Of a stretch of 44,155 bases of DNA, positions 29,764-37,137 are shown one piece after another (positions within the stretch are counted from its first letter, which is position 1; each line of letters starts with the position of its first letter). Both the position numbers and the translations under genes were made by a program. Source of the DNA: an uncultured Desulfobacterium sp. (GTDB taxonomy: Bacteria; Desulfobacterota; DSM-4660; Desulfatiglandales; Desulfatiglandaceae); assembly GCA_900258555.1 (NCBI GenBank), contig LT984855.1, positions 278,570-322,724 of the forward strand. Reading direction: 5' to 3'. The notes beneath the pieces were generated by a model. That model was not told the DNA's origin, did not search any database, and was given only the letters and a program-made list of their open reading frames with translations.

Positions 29764-30636
29764 ATGGCAGAAATAAAAAAAATAGGAATATTGGGCGGGG
29801 GAATGATGGGCTCGGATATCGCGCTGTCTTGCGCCCTGGCCGGATATAAGGTTCTGGTAAAGGAACTCAATAAGGAATCGGCGCAATCGGCTTACACCAG
29901 AATGGTTTCAAATTTAAAAAAGTGGGTATCAAAAGGTAAATTAGATATTGACGATGAAGCTGCAAAAGGCGCTGTAAGGCACATTACCACTACGGATTCT
30001 TTTGATGAATTCAAAGATGTAGATCTTGTGATTGAGGCCATTTTTGAAGACCCGCAGACAAAGATAGATAACTATCTGATGTTGGAGAAAATTTGCCCGC
30101 CACACTGTATTATCGCATCCAACACCTCTTCAATATCCATAACAAAACTCGGTGCCTGTTTTGAGGATTCTTCCAGAAAGGAACAATTTGTAGGAATGCA
30201 TTTCTTTTCGCCTGCTGTAGTTATGAAACTGGTTGAAGTGGTCAAAGGAGAGGAAACCTCACAGCAAACTGTGGATGCGGCATATGATTTTTGCATAACA
30301 ATCGGTAAAGAACCGGTTAAAATCGTGGATGGTGTGGGCTTCATTGTCAACCGAATACTGTCTGCCCTTACCAGTGAAGCCATGAGACTCTATGAAGAGG
30401 GTTTTGCATCACCGGAGGATATTGATAAGGCATGCCGATTGGGCCTTGGACACCCGGTAGGTCCTTTTGCCCTGATGGACCTGGCCAGTAATGATTTGGG
30501 TCTGAAGATCTTGAGGACCCTTCATGAGGCCTATGGAGAAAGATTCCGACCGAGACCATCTCTGGTGAAAAAGGTGGATGCAGGTCACTTCGGAATTAAG
30601 GCCGGAAAAGGATGGTTTACTTATAATAAGGGATAG
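29764..30636 (+). CDS. 3-hydroxyacyl-CoA (3-hydroxybutyryl-CoA) dehydrogenase
   Basis: 290 residues, the standard single-function length. NAD-binding GILGGGMMGSDIA (about 7-19); IASNTSSISI; catalytic His in FVGMHFFSPAVVMKLVEVV (about 140-158) with the conserved Asn/Glu partners; C-terminal helical dimer domain with NRILSALTSEAMRL and DLASNDLGLKIL. It interconverts 3-hydroxyacyl-CoA and 3-ketoacyl-CoA with NAD(H), in beta-oxidation or butyrate-type metabolism. GAGGATG precedes ATG. It is not in an operon with other beta-oxidation genes; its 3' end overlaps glnD's 3' end by 20 bases in convergent orientation. Confidence 0.92.
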   Translation: MAEIKKIGILGGGMMGSDIALSCALAGYKVLVKELNKESAQSAYTRMVSNLKKWVSKGKLDIDDEAAKGAVRHITTTDSFDEFKDVDLVIEAIFEDPQTKIDNYLMLEKICPPHCIIASNTSSISITKLGACFEDSSRKEQFVGMHFFSPAVVMKLVEVVKGEETSQQTVDAAYDFCITIGKEPVKIVDGVGFIVNRILSALTSEAMRLYEEGFASPEDIDKACRLGLGHPVGPFALMDLASNDLGLKILRTLHEAYGERFRPRPSLVKKVDAGHFGIKAGKGWFTYNKG

Positions 30637-33238
30637 GACGATTGGCCAGCCTGTAGTGAAGCGCCTCCCTGATCTCTTTCAGTTGACCCTCATCCTCAAT
30701 CTTCTGACCGTCAAAGTCGCGCACATAGAATATATCCGCGATCTGATCCGCCTTCGTGGCTATCTTGGCGATCCGTATATCCAGTTTGAGCGCAGACAGT
30801 ACCTGGGTGATCTCATACAGAAGCCCTACGCGATCATCTGCAAACACCTCGATAATAGTAAAAAAGTCTGATGTCTTATTGTCTGTTATCACCTTTGGAG
30901 GGCGTGAGGGTCTTATCTGTTCAGAAGATACGAAAGGCCTTGCCTTTTGCCCGAGGCGATAGCCCAGAGAGAGCCTTCCCTTGAATGTATTTTCCAGGTC
31001 CTTCTCCACCTTGTGCCATGTCTCCTCCGGATGGATGGGGTCAAGAGGTCTACTGACCCTGAATATGTCCACCACTGTCCCGTCACGCCATGTGTAGATG
31101 TCCGCGGAGAGGATATTTATGTTGTTGAGGGCGAATACCCCTGCAAGCTCTGAAAATACACCGGGCCTGTCTTTGGCTGTGAATATGATTTCCCAGCAGC
31201 CATCGGCGGGTTTTTCCCTTGTATCCAGCAAAAAACCGTGAGGCCCGCCGCTGCTCAACCCGGATTTAAAATCCCTGACAATGGCTATATGACGTGTTAT
31301 TTCTCTGGGTGCGACATTCAGGATATACCTCGTTGTCATAATGTCGAAAAAGGCCTCCAGTTCCCCCCCCTCAATATTGCCTGCCATAAGGCGCCTGACC
31401 TCGGACAGGGTGTCTTCCATGATCTGTGAGGCGCTGACCGTTGCAAGCTCTTTCCTCTCCAGGATATGAAGTATCTTAAAAAAGAGCTCCTGCACCAGAT
31501 TTGAGGTCCATGAATTCCACACCTTTGGTCCTGTGGCCTTTGAGTCCGCCCAGGTAAGCAGATAAAGCATCTTCAGGCGGTTGACGTCACTGATGATCCG
31601 GCAGCAGGATACTACTATCTTTTCATCGTTTAAGTCCCGGCGGGTGGCGGTCTCTGCAAGGAGGAGATGATTTTTTATCAGAAATACAACATCTTCTGTC
31701 ACCTTCCTGTCGCAGGCCCATCTCTTAAGTATTTTCTCAGCCATGTCTGCACCCTTGATGCTGTGGTTTTCGCCGGTCTTTCCTATATCATGAAGCAGCG
31801 CCGCCAGGAAAAGAGGCAGGGTATCCGGCAGCTCCGACAGAATTGCGGGAAAGACCAGTTCCTTCTGCCGCGCGGCCTCTTTCAGGTGTCTGAATGTCTC
31901 CAGGAGGTGTCGGCCTACAGGAAACATGTGGTATGCATCATACTGAACACGATCTTTTATCTCGCCGAATTCAGGGATAAAGGCATCGAGGAGTCCGGTT
32001 TCGAACATCTGATCAAGGGCGTCGTGGGCAAACTTGTTGGAAATGATATTGAGAAAGGCCGCAACCGTCCTCTTCGATCTCCTGAAGCCATCATCAACAA
32101 GATAGGTAAACTCCCTAACAAGCCTCAGAGATTCCAAAGAAAGCTCAATGCCTGATACAGAGCGCCTTTCAAAGATGTCCATGAGGATATGGGGGTCAGA
32201 GAGGATCACTGTTGAAGATTCAAAATATATCTCCTGCTGATGGACATAAAGGCCTTTGGAAAGCCCGGTCGGCGTGTCTGCCGTCCCAGACGCCGGCCTC
32301 TTGGTCAGGTGGGCGCAGATGAAGGAACGGTGCAAGGATTTTATCGCCGACATCGAGCAGTGAAGCCTGCCCAGGAATTGCTCCACAGCAGGGAAATTTT
32401 TCTTGTCTTTAAATCCGGTTTTTTCAGCAATCTTATCCTGATAATGAAAATGGAGCCGGTCGTTTCTCCTGCCTGACAGCATGTGCAGGTGATTTCTGAC
32501 CAGCCATATAAAGGCAAGGTTATCCCTTAGTTCCTTATATTCCTTATGGGTGAGCCTGCCATAATATTCCAGATCTCTGGGCACACCCAGATTAAAAAAG
32601 GCCCTGGCAAGCCAGAGGATATGGTGATAATCCCTGAGCCCCCCGATACCCTCCTTAAGATGCGGCTCAAGCATGTAGCTTGCATCTCCGAATTCCTCCC
32701 CCCTGATCTTATCCTGGTCCTCCAGCCATCTGCCGAACGAGGCCGCCCTCTTGGGAAGGACCCTTTTCTGGAGATCCTCCATAAGTGTGAGATAAATCGT
32801 CGAGTCGCCGCATACAAAACGGGCATCCATGAGCGATGTAAGGGCCTGGAAATCATCCAGTGAAAGGGAAATGCAGTCTTTGATGCTGCGTATGCCGTAT
32901 CCAATATCCAGACCCAGATCCCACAGGGGGAAAAAGATCTCCTCTGTCAGCACCTTTGCGCCATCAGGGATCTTGGATCTGAACAGGATCATGACATCCA
33001 GGTCAGAATGAAGGCAAAGCTCTTTTCTGCCGTATCCTCCCACTGCCACAAGCGCAAAGGGGTGCTTCCCTGTAAACAGAGCCTGGCCGTTTATGCTCTC
33101 TTCATGGGTCTGTCTGAAATACTGATCCATAATCTCAGTATATTGGGACTGAAAATTGTCCTGTAAGCCGTTGTCGGCAAAACGCTTGACAAGAGATGCT
33201 TTGGCCTGTTTGAGCTCTTCAAAGGCAAGGGTCTTCAT
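30617..33238 (-). CDS. glnD: GlnD, bifunctional PII uridylyltransferase/uridylyl-removing enzyme
   Basis: About 873 residues. Nucleotidyltransferase motif GGYGRKELCLHSDLDVMI (G-G then D-x-D), a long helical linker, HD domain with LFLAALLHDIGKTGENHS, and two C-terminal ACT domains (about 700-780: KDRPGVFSELAGVFALNNI; about 800-873: DDRVGLLYEITQVLSAL). It senses glutamine and modifies PII. I place the start at ATG 33238, 14 bases after the glnB stop; a GTG at 33277 would overlap glnB. It is the last gene of the amtB-glnB-glnD operon. The 3' end overlaps the convergent dehydrogenase gene. Confidence 0.93.
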   Translation of the reverse strand: MKTLAFEELKQAKASLVKRFADNGLQDNFQSQYTEIMDQYFRQTHEESINGQALFTGKHPFALVAVGGYGRKELCLHSDLDVMILFRSKIPDGAKVLTEEIFFPLWDLGLDIGYGIRSIKDCISLSLDDFQALTSLMDARFVCGDSTIYLTLMEDLQKRVLPKRAASFGRWLEDQDKIRGEEFGDASYMLEPHLKEGIGGLRDYHHILWLARAFFNLGVPRDLEYYGRLTHKEYKELRDNLAFIWLVRNHLHMLSGRRNDRLHFHYQDKIAEKTGFKDKKNFPAVEQFLGRLHCSMSAIKSLHRSFICAHLTKRPASGTADTPTGLSKGLYVHQQEIYFESSTVILSDPHILMDIFERRSVSGIELSLESLRLVREFTYLVDDGFRRSKRTVAAFLNIISNKFAHDALDQMFETGLLDAFIPEFGEIKDRVQYDAYHMFPVGRHLLETFRHLKEAARQKELVFPAILSELPDTLPLFLAALLHDIGKTGENHSIKGADMAEKILKRWACDRKVTEDVVFLIKNHLLLAETATRRDLNDEKIVVSCCRIISDVNRLKMLYLLTWADSKATGPKVWNSWTSNLVQELFFKILHILERKELATVSASQIMEDTLSEVRRLMAGNIEGGELEAFFDIMTTRYILNVAPREITRHIAIVRDFKSGLSSGGPHGFLLDTREKPADGCWEIIFTAKDRPGVFSELAGVFALNNINILSADIYTWRDGTVVDIFRVSRPLDPIHPEETWHKVEKDLENTFKGRLSLGYRLGQKARPFVSSEQIRPSRPPKVITDNKTSDFFTIIEVFADDRVGLLYEITQVLSALKLDIRIAKIATKADQIADIFYVRDFDGQKIEDEGQLKEIREALHYRLANRPIPYYK

Positions 33239-33251
33239 AAAGATTCCATTT

Positions 33252-33608
<357 letters not shown>

Positions 33609-33675: not shown

Positions 33676-34896
33676 CTAAAAACTGTATCCGCTCTCATTG
33701 TGAAGGCTGACGTCCATACCCCTGACCTCTTCTTCCTCTGTGATTCTGACGCCGATTACTATATCAAGGATCTTGAGGATAATAAATGTCATAATAAAGG
33801 CAAAGGCCATTGTCACAATGACAGAGACAAATTGCACCCACAGTTGAGCCGCGTTTCCGAAGAAGAGACCATCAGCGCCTGCCGGATTAATCGCTTTGCT
33901 GGCAAAAAGTCCTGTTGCCAGCGCTCCCCATGTGCCGCCCAGTCCATGGACACCGACCACATCAAGGGAATCGTCGTAACCAAGCCTGGATTTTACCAAC
34001 ACACCGCCGTAACAAATAAGACCTGCCATGGCCCCGATGATGATCGCAGAGAGCGGCCCCACGAAACCGGATCCCGGTGTAATGGCGACAAGGCCTGCCA
34101 CAGCGCCACTCGCCGCGCCCAGGGTGGTTGGTTTCCCCCTGTGAATCCATTCAAGAATAATCCATGAAAGCGCAGCGGCGGCAGATGCAATGTGGGTTAC
34201 TGTAAAAGCGCTGGCAGCAAGTCCGTTACATGCAAGGGCACTGCCCGCATTAAAGCCGAACCAGCCGAACCACAAAAGGGCCGCGCCTGTTATGGTCATC
34301 GGAAGGTTATGAGGTATATATGCGGTGCTGCCGTAACCAAGGCGCTTACCCAATATGATCGCCGCAGCCAGGGCTGAAACACCGGAACTGATGTGGACAA
34401 CGGTCCCGCCTGCAAAGTCCAGTGCGCCCAGGCCCCTGATCCATCCTCCGACGGCCCATACCCAGTGACACAAGGGGTTGTAGACCAGCGTGGCCCACAG
34501 AATTGTAAACAAGAGAAATGCGCTGAATTTCATCCTCTCCGCAAACGCCCCTGTAATCAGCGCAGGAGTAATCACGGCAAACATACATTGAAAAATCATA
34601 AATGCCAGATGCGGGATGGTGCCGCAATAATCCGCATTGGGCTCCATTCCGACCGAATCAAGTCCCAACCAGTCAAGCCCACCGATAACACCACCGTGAT
34701 CCGGTCCAAAGGCCATGGAATAACCCCAAAGCACCCATTCAATGCTGATAATTCCAAGGATGATAAAACTCTGCATTATGGTCCCCAGCACGTTTTTGCT
34801 CCGCGTCATTCCACCGTAAAAAAGCGCGAGCCCAGGTGTCATCAACATCACCAAGGCCGCCGACATCAAGACAAAAGCTGTGTCTCCCGTGTTCAT
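33676..34896 (-). CDS. amtB: AmtB-type ammonium transporter
   Basis: About 406 residues and eleven predicted membrane helices. Pore features: the His pair in GGTVVHISSGVSAL and GVVGVHGLGGTWGAL, and the N-terminal phenylalanine/tryptophan gate region MTPGLALFYGGMTRSKN. It conducts ammonium/ammonia across the inner membrane and is blocked by PII at high nitrogen. ATG 34896 follows GGAGGG; the longer frame from 34920 includes that site as coding and is less likely. First gene of the nitrogen operon with a -24/-12 promoter about 50 bases upstream. Confidence 0.95.
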   Translation of the reverse strand: MNTGDTAFVLMSAALVMLMTPGLALFYGGMTRSKNVLGTIMQSFIILGIISIEWVLWGYSMAFGPDHGGVIGGLDWLGLDSVGMEPNADYCGTIPHLAFMIFQCMFAVITPALITGAFAERMKFSAFLLFTILWATLVYNPLCHWVWAVGGWIRGLGALDFAGGTVVHISSGVSALAAAIILGKRLGYGSTAYIPHNLPMTITGAALLWFGWFGFNAGSALACNGLAASAFTVTHIASAAAALSWIILEWIHRGKPTTLGAASGAVAGLVAITPGSGFVGPLSAIIIGAMAGLICYGGVLVKSRLGYDDSLDVVGVHGLGGTWGALATGLFASKAINPAGADGLFFGNAAQLWVQFVSVIVTMAFAFIMTFIILKILDIVIGVRITEEEEVRGMDVSLHNESGYSF

Positions 34897-34945
34897 CTCC
34901 AAATCCCTCCGTGGCATCAAATTTGTGTTTCGACATTAGAGCAAA

Positions 34946-34960
34946 GCAACGGTTGTGCCG
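34946..34960 (-). promoter_or_regulatory. Sigma-54 (-24/-12) promoter for amtB-glnB-glnD
   Basis: On the minus strand the sequence reads CGGCACAACCGTTGCTTT, with GG and GC exactly 10 bases apart and a good TTGCTTT half. Only the first base of TGGCAC differs. Its distance to ATG 34896 is about 50 bases, consistent with a nitrogen-limitation promoter activated by an NtrC-type protein encoded elsewhere. Confidence 0.75.
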
Positions 34961-35320
34961 CTGTTGACAATATCCATATAAACCAGACACACCCGATTTT
35001 ATTCCAATGAAATATTTAATTTAATTTCAATATGTTAAGAAATATAAAGCCTAAAAGGTTTTTGCTTGAGGAGGGATTCTGTCTCACAAGCCACAGTGTA
35101 GACAATAAGTTTAATGAATATTTCTATTACAAATTTGTATTGTTTGGAAATATTACATACAATTCTGTAGCGTAAATAAGAAATGGGATCAAAATGAGAT
35201 TTCAAACTGCGGTTGGATGAACAGACTGTTGCTTGACAGGCATTGTTCTTTCATTTACTTTTATTTTGTAAAAATCACATCTTGATCATGTGGCTATGGG
35301 TATCTTAAGAGGCATATGTT
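34961..35320. other. AT-rich divergent intergenic region
   Basis: About 360 bases separate amtB from the + strand regulator gene. TTGACA at 35233-35238 is a fair -35 box for the regulator, but the -10 region 17 bases later (TACTTT) is poor. I see no terminator or gene. Activator sites for the amtB promoter would be expected here, but I could not pick out clear dyads. Confidence 0.45.
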
Positions 35321-36619
35321 ATGGAAGAAGACCTAAGAATTGACTCGGGGGTCAGTCAGCTCGATCATATCCTTGGAGGGCTCCGCATCGGCGACAATGT
35401 GGTATGGTATGATGATGTCGGAAGTCTTGCCCCTGCGTTTTGTCTGAATTTTATCAAGGTATCCAGGGCCGAAAAAAAACCGATTATCTACCTGAATTTC
35501 GACCGTTCAATAAAAAATCTCCTGGAGCAGTTGGGCCCTCTAGCTGATTACGATCAATTGACTATCCTTGACTGCTTTACCCATGGCAAGGGAGAAGGCG
35601 CCGAGGTTTTTATGAAATTCTACGCTGAGGGCGATAAGGCCAGGCGATGCAAGATCATCAAGATAGAAAAGCCGCGAAATGCAGACCATGTGACGGGGGC
35701 CTTTTACAGCCTTCACAAGACCATGACCGGGGATGTCCGTTTTGTTTTTGACAGCCTTACCGGGATGCAGGAATTGTGGGGTGGTGAAGATCAGATCCTG
35801 AAATTTTATTCACACTCCTGCCCAAGGTTGTATGAACTCAATACGATTGCCTACTGGATTGTGGAAAAGGGGGCGCATTCCCCGAGACTAAAGGCACATA
35901 TCAACAAGATCGCCCAGGTCGCCATAGACCTGTCACTCAAGAGGGGAAAGACATCTCTTACAGTGGTAAAGGCCCAAAACCGTGACCTGGAGGCACTGAA
36001 TAAGACCTATAATTACTGGACCAAAGACCTCGCCATTACCTTTGACTCTGAAAGACATACCACAAGCCAGGTGGACCTGGGCACAAGACTCAGGGACCTG
36101 CGCAAAAAAAGGGGCCTGTCGCAGACCGAACTTGCAAAACTGGTGGGTGTGACATCAAGCACAATTTCCCAGATTGAAAGCAATCAGATCTACCCTTCCT
36201 TACCGGCGTTGATCAAGATGTCCGAGATCCTCTCTGTAAAGGTAAGCTCGTTTTTCGGCGAATTGGACAGGGCCTCTGAGCGGGTGATATTCACCCCTTC
36301 ACAGGCGATGGATGTGCAGTTTTCCGTCTCCACAAGGGAGACTATTGCGGGAAAGGCCCTGACACCCCTGGATCTTGAGCCAAAGGCGGAGCCCTACCTT
36401 ATCGAGATAATGCCGGATAAAAGCCTTCCTTCCCATTTCTTCAGCCACAAGGGGGATGAGATCGGATATGTTCTCTCAGGCAAGCTGCAACTGAAAATGG
36501 GGAGCAAATTCCACAGCGCCAAGGCAGGGGACATAATATATCTGTCAACCGAGGCCCCTTCAGGATGGAAAAACCCGGGACCTGAGCCCGCCACCATGCT
36601 TTGGATCAAGGTAAAATAA
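35321..36619 (+). CDS. KaiC/RAD55-like + XRE helix-turn-helix + cupin fusion regulator
   Basis: 432 residues with three parts. (1) 1-240: a RecA/KaiC-type core (SGVSQLDHILGGLRIGDNVVWY at the start, Walker-B-like VRFVFDSLTGM at 139-149), but the Walker A lysine loop G-x-x-G-x-G-K-T is replaced by GDNVVWYDDVGS, so ATP hydrolysis is unlikely. (2) 253-312: a clear XRE/Cro DNA-binding domain (RKKRGLSQTELAKLVGVTSS). (3) 365-430: a cupin with H-F-F-S-H-K-G-D-E-I-G-Y-V-L-S-G, a possible metal or ligand site. XRE+cupin regulators are common; the extra N-terminal KaiC-like module is unusual. AAGAGG precedes ATG. It is likely a transcription factor sensing a small molecule and perhaps a nucleotide; target unknown. 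Its 3' end faces the ferredoxin gene 10 bases away. Confidence 0.85.
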   Translation: MEEDLRIDSGVSQLDHILGGLRIGDNVVWYDDVGSLAPAFCLNFIKVSRAEKKPIIYLNFDRSIKNLLEQLGPLADYDQLTILDCFTHGKGEGAEVFMKFYAEGDKARRCKIIKIEKPRNADHVTGAFYSLHKTMTGDVRFVFDSLTGMQELWGGEDQILKFYSHSCPRLYELNTIAYWIVEKGAHSPRLKAHINKIAQVAIDLSLKRGKTSLTVVKAQNRDLEALNKTYNYWTKDLAITFDSERHTTSQVDLGTRLRDLRKKRGLSQTELAKLVGVTSSTISQIESNQIYPSLPALIKMSEILSVKVSSFFGELDRASERVIFTPSQAMDVQFSVSTRETIAGKALTPLDLEPKAEPYLIEIMPDKSLPSHFFSHKGDEIGYVLSGKLQLKMGSKFHSAKAGDIIYLSTEAPSGWKNPGPEPATMLWIKVK

Positions 36620-36629
36620 TCCGTCGTTA

Positions 36630-36860
36630 TCAGGTTACATGTTTGGCAAATACAGCTTCCAAGGGACAGACCTCAATGCAATCCCAGCATCCCATGCACA
36701 TATCCTGAAATATTATGGGTTGTTCATAGGCACCATCCATCTGTTTAATCACTTTGTGATCGCATGCCTGCACAGCGGCGCACCGCCCTTCTTCGGGATT
36801 GCATATATTGGGGTTACATAAATCATAATTAATCGAAGCAAATGATTTTTTAGGCTGCAC
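36630..36860 (-). CDS. Small ferredoxin-like protein with extra N-terminal cysteines
   Basis: About 76 residues from GTG 36860, which has AAAGGA six bases before it; a GTG at 36899 is in frame but lacks a site. The C-terminal half carries one [4Fe-4S] motif, C-M-G-C-W-D-C-I-E-V-C-P. The N-terminal half has C-N-P-N-I-C-N-P-E-E-G-R-C-A-A-V-Q-A-C, four further cysteines that could bind a second, unusual cluster or zinc. It is probably a cytoplasmic electron carrier or a small sensor. It converges with the KaiC/XRE/cupin gene. The 36861-37137 gap beyond it holds nothing I can identify. Confidence 0.75.
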   Translation of the reverse strand: MQPKKSFASINYDLCNPNICNPEEGRCAAVQACDHKVIKQMDGAYEQPIIFQDMCMGCWDCIEVCPLEAVFAKHVT

Positions 36861-37137
36861 AAATATTCCTTTACATTGAGCCGCTGTCTGAGCGCTCACT
36901 TTTGTTCAAATTACATCTCTGAACCCTATCGTTATTATGACACTATCCATAGTTTAAAAAATGTCCCCCTGCCATTTTCCATCGAGTCCAGCCCCAAAAA
37001 GCCCGAAGTCCCATTAATTTGCCAACAGCCCAGGGGACAATGCAAGTCCTCAATCGGCCTTCATGCAGTAACTGGATGTCTTGACTCGAGATATAATGCC
37101 ATTATCTTTTCCAAGGAATAAGAGAAGGAGAAGTATC

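Follow-up and report, generated by a model that had tools for sequence, protein, structure and literature searches.

PuuR and similar regulators, in which an XRE domain is followed by a cupin domain, are repressors. Proteins of the KaiC/RAD55 family (PF06745), such as the KaiC CII domain and PH0284 (2dr3), share a core fold that carries a P-loop with Lys and Thr together with a pair of catalytic glutamates. At the RNA level, a dual-hairpin rule has been described for nitrogen genes under ANTAR antitermination (Ramesh et al., 2012; PMC3369931). Nitrogen control has been little studied in Desulfobacterota, and in the literature searched we found no description of an architecture that combines KaiC, cupin and helix-turn-helix domains.

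The window, which is the whole 44,155-nucleotide stretch of DNA analyzed here, encodes a protein of this kind, denoted REG (Table 1). Comparison of profiles and structures, conservation among orthologues, gene neighborhoods and promoter analysis together suggest, with a probability that we put at roughly two in three, that in Desulfobacterota REG serves as the dedicated transcriptional repressor of a glutamate-synthase-like gene, GltB1, and that it acts through the palindrome TTAGTNNNACTAA as an oligomeric pseudo-ATPase. The predicted operator and the gltB-like target are additions to a sequence-only reading of the same DNA, which had described REG as a three-part regulator beside nitrogen genes. 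With this reading, a family of regulators from sulfate-reducing and related bacteria gains a predicted operator, a target gene and a testable mechanism.

REG is a 432-residue protein encoded by an open reading frame that has an ATG start and contains no internal stop. Its XRE and cupin parts both score above the curated Pfam cut-offs, HTH_3 at residues 257-308 (E 3e-15; 56.3 bits against a cut-off of 23) and Cupin_2 at residues 360-429 (E 2e-12; 47.3 bits against 27.2). REG resembles PuuR (NF007408) and the Vibrio cholerae protein 1y9q in the order XRE then cupin (residues 253-430) and in having a predicted palindromic operator, but differs from them in the presence of an extra 243-residue pseudo-KaiC domain, in the lack of two metal-ligand positions and in its gltB-like predicted target; its score against the PuuR model, 68.2 bits, lies below the equivalog cut-off of 211.

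Table 1. Features of the window discussed in the text (positions are those of the window; residues are those of REG).
Feature	Position	Strand	Basis
glnD, PII uridylyltransferase	30617..33277	-	GlnD_UR_UTase E 5e-35
glnB/glnK PII protein	33252..33590	-	PF00543 E 2e-32
amtB, ammonium transporter, divergent from REG; start codon uncertain	33676..34920	-	PF00909 E 4e-131
Sigma-54-type -24/-12 element CGGCACAACCGTTGCT of amtB, not of REG	34945..34960	-	sequence motif
Palindrome TACAAATTTGTA, probable sigma-54 enhancer-binding-protein site of amtB, not a REG operator	35128..35139	.	motif comparison
Palindrome TACAATTCTGTA, 30 bp from TACAAATTTGTA	35158..35169	.	motif comparison
REG (pseudo-KaiC domain, XRE helix-turn-helix, cupin)	35321..36619	+	ORF, Pfam, AlphaFold2 model, orthologues
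KaiC/RAD55-like N-domain, residues 1-243	35321..36049	+	profile and fold searches
GDNVVW signature and vestigial P-loop, residues 24-38 (GDNVVWYDDVGSLAP), without Lys/Thr	35390..35434	+	KaiC alignment, conservation
DRS, residues 61-63, at the place of the KaiC FEES catalytic glutamates	35501..35509	+	alignment; D61 68/68, R62 66/68
Family-specific motif DCFTHGKG, residues 84-91, end of third core strand	35570..35593	+	68/68 invariance; strand 80-84
XRE/Cro-C1 helix-turn-helix, residues 253-308	36077..36244	+	Pfam; most conserved REG domain
Cupin, residues 356-430, incomplete metal-ligand set	36386..36610	+	Pfam, conservation
Small 4Fe-4S ferredoxin-like gene, convergent with REG	36630..36899	-	PF00037 E 4e-5

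The affinity of the N-terminal domain is weak in a single sequence, with residues 1-245 alone giving no Pfam match and only a weak match to the KaiC model TIGR03881 (residues 6-74, E 0.017), and becomes clear with a set of 51 family members: PF06745 was found in 39 of the 51 N-domains (best E 5e-9) and TIGR03881 in 48, and the 51-member profile matched the PDB KaiC entry 8zn7 with an E of 7e-8. The AlphaFold2 model of REG (mean pLDDT 85.6) aligns with KaiC CII and PH0284 over 207-218 residues (VIA Z 23-24, rmsd 2.2-2.3). Common to these proteins are a core fold of about 210 residues, the N-terminal region and a Walker-B-like strand; REG differs in that it has a single such domain, fused to XRE and cupin domains, in the low identity (13-16% in most structural alignments), and in the replacement of the P-loop Lys/Thr and the catalytic Glu pair by other conserved residues. 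The RecA-like Elongator subunit Elp4 (PAXNEB, PF05625) is also matched weakly by 37 of the 51 members (best E 1.4e-5), but REG is bacterial and fused to DNA-binding and cupin domains, and the KaiC profile match is better.

In the HMMER alignment, the equivalent of the KaiC P-loop GTSGTGKT is DDVGSLAP, residues 31-38 of REG. The Walker A pattern GxxGxGK[ST] is absent and none of 68 orthologues has a Lys at that place; the KaiC FEES, with the catalytic glutamates after strand 2, aligns to FDRS. The replacing residues are themselves near-invariant (D31, G34 and L36 in 68/68 orthologues, A37 in 66/68), so that the loss of the P-loop is an ancestral feature that has been maintained, and not decay, chance or a sequencing artefact. 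The KaiC/RAD55-like core without the P-loop lysine that the sequence-only reading had seen in about residues 1-240 holds up, and its prediction of a non-hydrolytic domain is supported by the missing P-loop Lys and Thr/Ser and the replaced Glu pair; its placing of the Walker A replacement at GDNVVWYDDVGS needs adjustment, since the replaced segment only starts at the C-terminal part of that stretch.

Another set of residues could have taken over. D84, F86, G89, K90 and G91 of the motif DCFTxGKG are invariant in all 68 orthologues, and residues 84-91 are a candidate new ligand site. The idea that the domain still binds or hydrolyses an NTP by way of a relocated lysine, either K90 in GKG or K217, draws on the invariance of both residues (68/68 for K217 as well), on the location of K90 just after the third core strand and on the retention of the Walker-B-like acid at position 144 (E in 63 and D in 5 of the 68). 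We consider it unlikely, because the P-loop has lost its Ser/Thr and glycines along with the Lys and other residues stand in for the catalytic Glu pair, and because the P-loop is likewise missing from the cupin-less and PPDK-fused homologues described below.

The scan of public genomes yielded 106 relatives of REG, 80 of which were kept and 77 of which gave an almost full-length alignment, the conservation counts being made on 68; the labels of their records assign every one of them to Desulfobacterota/Deltaproteobacteria lineages or to unplaced Proteobacteria MAGs. The N-domain is present in 146 of 395 Desulfobacterota genomes, and proteins of the REG kind, with the N-domain followed by XRE, in about 79 of the 395, a figure counted from the rows listed, in which unread sequences were assigned by their score and the length of the open frame. 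These fall into a core group of 53, a group of 12 divergent three-part proteins and a group of 13 that are mostly cupin-less (among the members read, six lack the cupin, one of these confirmed by Pfam, and two have it). Most other genomes with the N-domain encode proteins of about 870 residues in which it is fused to PPDK_N, the ATP-binding domain of pyruvate phosphate dikinase; the window's own genome carries such a fusion (G000:C1:1845141, L002), and others are L135 and L136. Hence the architecture that the sequence-only reading had called unusual belongs to an uncharacterised, widely conserved regulator family, whose N-domain is also joined to other outputs. The plasmid matches listed fall largely in the XRE-cupin part and none spans 80% of the protein; no phage match to the N-domain was found. 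The GDNVVW signature or a close variant is present in all N-domain members read except for a very divergent three-part paralogue in two genomes (L124 and L125, in G162 and G187), which has PETVLW instead. One locus (L133; G334:C10:243203-248331) holds a broken REG gene, reduced to an N-domain fragment, with GltB1 still adjoining.

With respect to function, the expected link to nitrogen genes extends beyond the window, in which amtB, glnK and glnD adjoin REG: genes of nitrogen or glutamate metabolism lie within the flank in 46 of the 80 loci, many of which are short contigs. The most frequent neighbor is GltB1 (28 loci), followed by GAF-ANTAR (11), GltB-type genes (8), AmtB (7) and GlnA (7), and the cupin-less and divergent members adjoin the same kinds of genes. 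GltB1 encodes a gltB-like, FMN-type PF01645 protein of about 540 residues, for which the PF01645 match is partial and no NCBIfam model matches. Each genome in which it was detected has just one copy, so that the probability of chance adjacency to REG is well under 1%. Moreover, GltB1 is present in 39 of 40 genomes with REG compared to 21 of 50 without it (Fisher p 4e-9, indicative only, the genomes being related by descent). In the window organism, GltB1 is located on another contig (G000:C3:387502-389151).

An unbiased palindromic EM search of the GltB1 promoters recovered the motif TTAGT-NNN-ACTAA (TTAGTNNNACTAA), with a log-likelihood of 77.5 for TtAGT...ACTaA compared to 18-20 in shuffles. 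Exact matches number nine in 927 kb of REG loci, all of them within 350 bp upstream of four kinds of genes, namely GltB1 (4), c3Cys (3), GAF-ANTAR (1) and REG itself (1). When promoters fetched separately from whole genomes were scored with a position weight matrix (PWM) at a threshold of at least 10, a site was found at GltB1 in 27 of 30 genomes with REG (null 0.8) versus 2 of 21 without it (null 0.2), and at amtB of REG-containing genomes in only 2 of 29 (null 0.6). When up to two mismatches to the plain consensus are allowed, the counts are 27/30 versus 6/21 (p 1e-5), and a TTGACA-like -35 element lies just upstream of the site in 19/30 versus 2/21 (p 1e-4); these p-values are indicative, as the test set may include assemblies that also supplied training loci and the genomes with and without REG are phylogenetically dependent. 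The exceptions are few: of the two positives without REG, G070 has its site at -40 and lacks a -35 element there, and G017, in which no REG was detected, is congeneric with REG-containing genomes; in two genomes with REG (G208 and G252), GltB1 lacks a good site.

Operator pairs cluster at 53-56 bp (8 versus 0.02 expected) and at about 29-32 bp. A strict pair, 52-54 bp apart, occurs at five places in 40 genomes with REG, all at GltB1 and about 140-200 bp upstream, and a genome-wide search of 49 genomes without REG found none. Pairs at 28-32 bp number four: GltB1 accounts for two, another precedes asnB at about 2 kb from REG (G252), and the last is near hisF/aspS (G390). In the window's own genome, the GltB1 sites lie at -267 and -214 (C3:387232 and 387285), 53 bp apart, the proximal one between TTGACA and TAATAGT. 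The contrast with REG-less genomes and the genome-wide pair search are stronger evidence than the p-values. In the divergent REG subfamilies the sites at GltB1 are weaker or different, as expected for changed recognition helices.

We infer that REG itself probably binds the TTAGTNNNACTAA motif, given the co-occurrence, the gene adjacency, the XRE domain and the sites at some REG promoters; another XRE protein that co-occurs with REG could also own it. The operator often falls within the -35/-10 spacer of GltB1, and the position of the sites suggests repression. According to the proposed mechanism, the XRE domain would bind TTAGT-NNN-ACTAA, and REG bound over the spacer would block RNA polymerase; a second operator at a distance of 29-32 or 53-56 bp, which corresponds to about three or five turns of the helix, would allow cooperative binding of at least two REG units. 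Oligomerization is likewise suggested by the homology to KaiC and the spacing of the sites. That REG instead activates GltB1, with the distal site as the activating one, would fit the site pairs that often include one upstream of the -35 element and the unusual distances of some operators, but the most regular of the sites lies over the -35/-10 spacer, the classical position for a repressor, and repression is the mode of action of XRE-cupin relatives like PuuR, so that we regard activation as distinctly improbable. No sigma-54 promoters were found for REG or GltB1.

Under repression, the KaiC-like domain, having given up ATP hydrolysis, would serve as a module for oligomerization and/or the sensing of small molecules, in which the rim of a conserved DCFxxGKG/SLTGM pocket would replace the P-loop, and the cupin would be a second module for dimerization or ligand binding. 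REG appears to present a KaiC-like domain kept as a pseudo-ATPase inside a transcription factor. The sequence-only reading had proposed gating by a cupin ligand. Of the four canonical metal ligands of a cupin (HxH..E and the motif-2 His, matched by eye), the REG cupin lacks two: position 374 is Phe in 67/68 orthologues and the motif-2 His position, 414, is Ser, Thr or Asn, while H376 is retained in 63/68 and E380 in 68/68. A classical metal cupin is accordingly unlikely, and a metal-cupin ligand cannot be assumed. Nor does it seem at all probable that the N-domain is a structural relic without a ligand, leaving the cupin alone to sense the signal: the loss of all catalytic motifs would be compatible with a relic, but the share of invariant columns in the N-domain is twice that in the cupin (18% versus 9%), the dN/dS of the N-domain, 0.063 in comparison with a 92%-identical orthologue (L007), reflects purifying selection, and cupin-less members exist next to the same kinds of genes. 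More tentatively, and as a possibility that we hold open to doubt, the ATPase-stripped KaiC-type ring domain might be a ligand-gated, oligomeric DNA-binding scaffold, with multimeric repressors spanning operator pairs three or five turns apart and the DCFxxGKG pocket reading a nitrogen or energy metabolite; the same module, coupled to XRE, XRE-cupin or PPDK_N outputs, would then be a sensor of general use in Desulfobacterota.

The GltB1 transcript seems to be subject to further control. The GltB1 promoter (TTGACA-N-TAAGTnnnnCTAA) lies upstream of tandem ANTAR hairpins (GCAC[AANGGC]GTGC and GAC[AANGNC]GTC), which are followed by a terminator and are present in 11 of 23 GltB1 leaders versus 0.2 in shuffles and in 2 of 78 REG leaders. 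A1/G4 hexaloop hairpins that overlap the terminator occur in L012, L015, L020, L022, L044, L068, L075 and others; in the window genome the hairpins are at about G000:C3 387320-387440 (L197/L241), and they are kept at GltB1 in the divergent REG subfamilies. The first EM motif obtained from full GltB1 leaders was rejected as a protein site, as it corresponds to these hairpins. Tandem A1/G4 hexaloop hairpins plus a terminator before glutamate-synthase-type genes match the described arrangement (Ramesh et al., 2012; PMC3369931). The target of ANTAR is RNA, once initiation has taken place; REG, in contrast, is not an ANTAR protein and is predicted to bind DNA at the promoter of the same gene. After promoter escape, the transcript would meet the hairpins and terminator as a second checkpoint, and we predict a two-layer control of one gltB-like gene by a DNA repressor and then by ANTAR antitermination. 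A GAF-ANTAR gene is often located next to the GltB1 leaders with ANTAR hairpins.

Control by REG of the neighboring amtB-glnK-glnD genes via the TACANNNNTGTA palindromes that lie between amtB and REG (35128-35169) is very improbable, for although two palindromes lie 30 bp apart between divergent genes and the same pairs precede the glnD/amtB operons in L010 and L039, they stand before sigma-54 -24/-12 elements in genomes with and without REG alike, as expected of an NtrC-type activator, and no TTAGT-type site was found near amtB, the PWM detecting none in the window's amtB/REG intergenic region. For the same reason, TACAAATTTGTA palindromes were rejected as a REG operator. The operon in the window looks to be under sigma-54 and enhancer control. 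The TACANNNNTGTA pair with a sigma-54 element upstream of amtB recurs across Desulfobacterota in an arrangement that differs from the enterobacterial NtrC site, and may represent the phylum's own NtrC-type site. The ferredoxin-like gene has no REG-type site upstream, and no Rfam family was found in the window.

Autoregulation of REG as a general rule was also rejected, the final PWM scoring only 11 of 77 REG promoters (null 2.3) and most lacking a site; searching the REG upstream regions for palindromes and by EM returned nothing but AT-rich noise, and no convincing shared site emerged from pairwise footprints of six REG promoter pairs from congeneric genomes. Finally, c3Cys, a small Cys-rich protein of about 140 residues with no Pfam or NCBIfam match, is encoded beside or near REG in L049 (8660-9079) and in L018, L019, L036, L039, L045, L052 and L063. 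All 8 c3Cys promoters carry a TTAGTNNNACTAA-type site (PWM of at least 10; null 0.5), often two, 29 bp apart.
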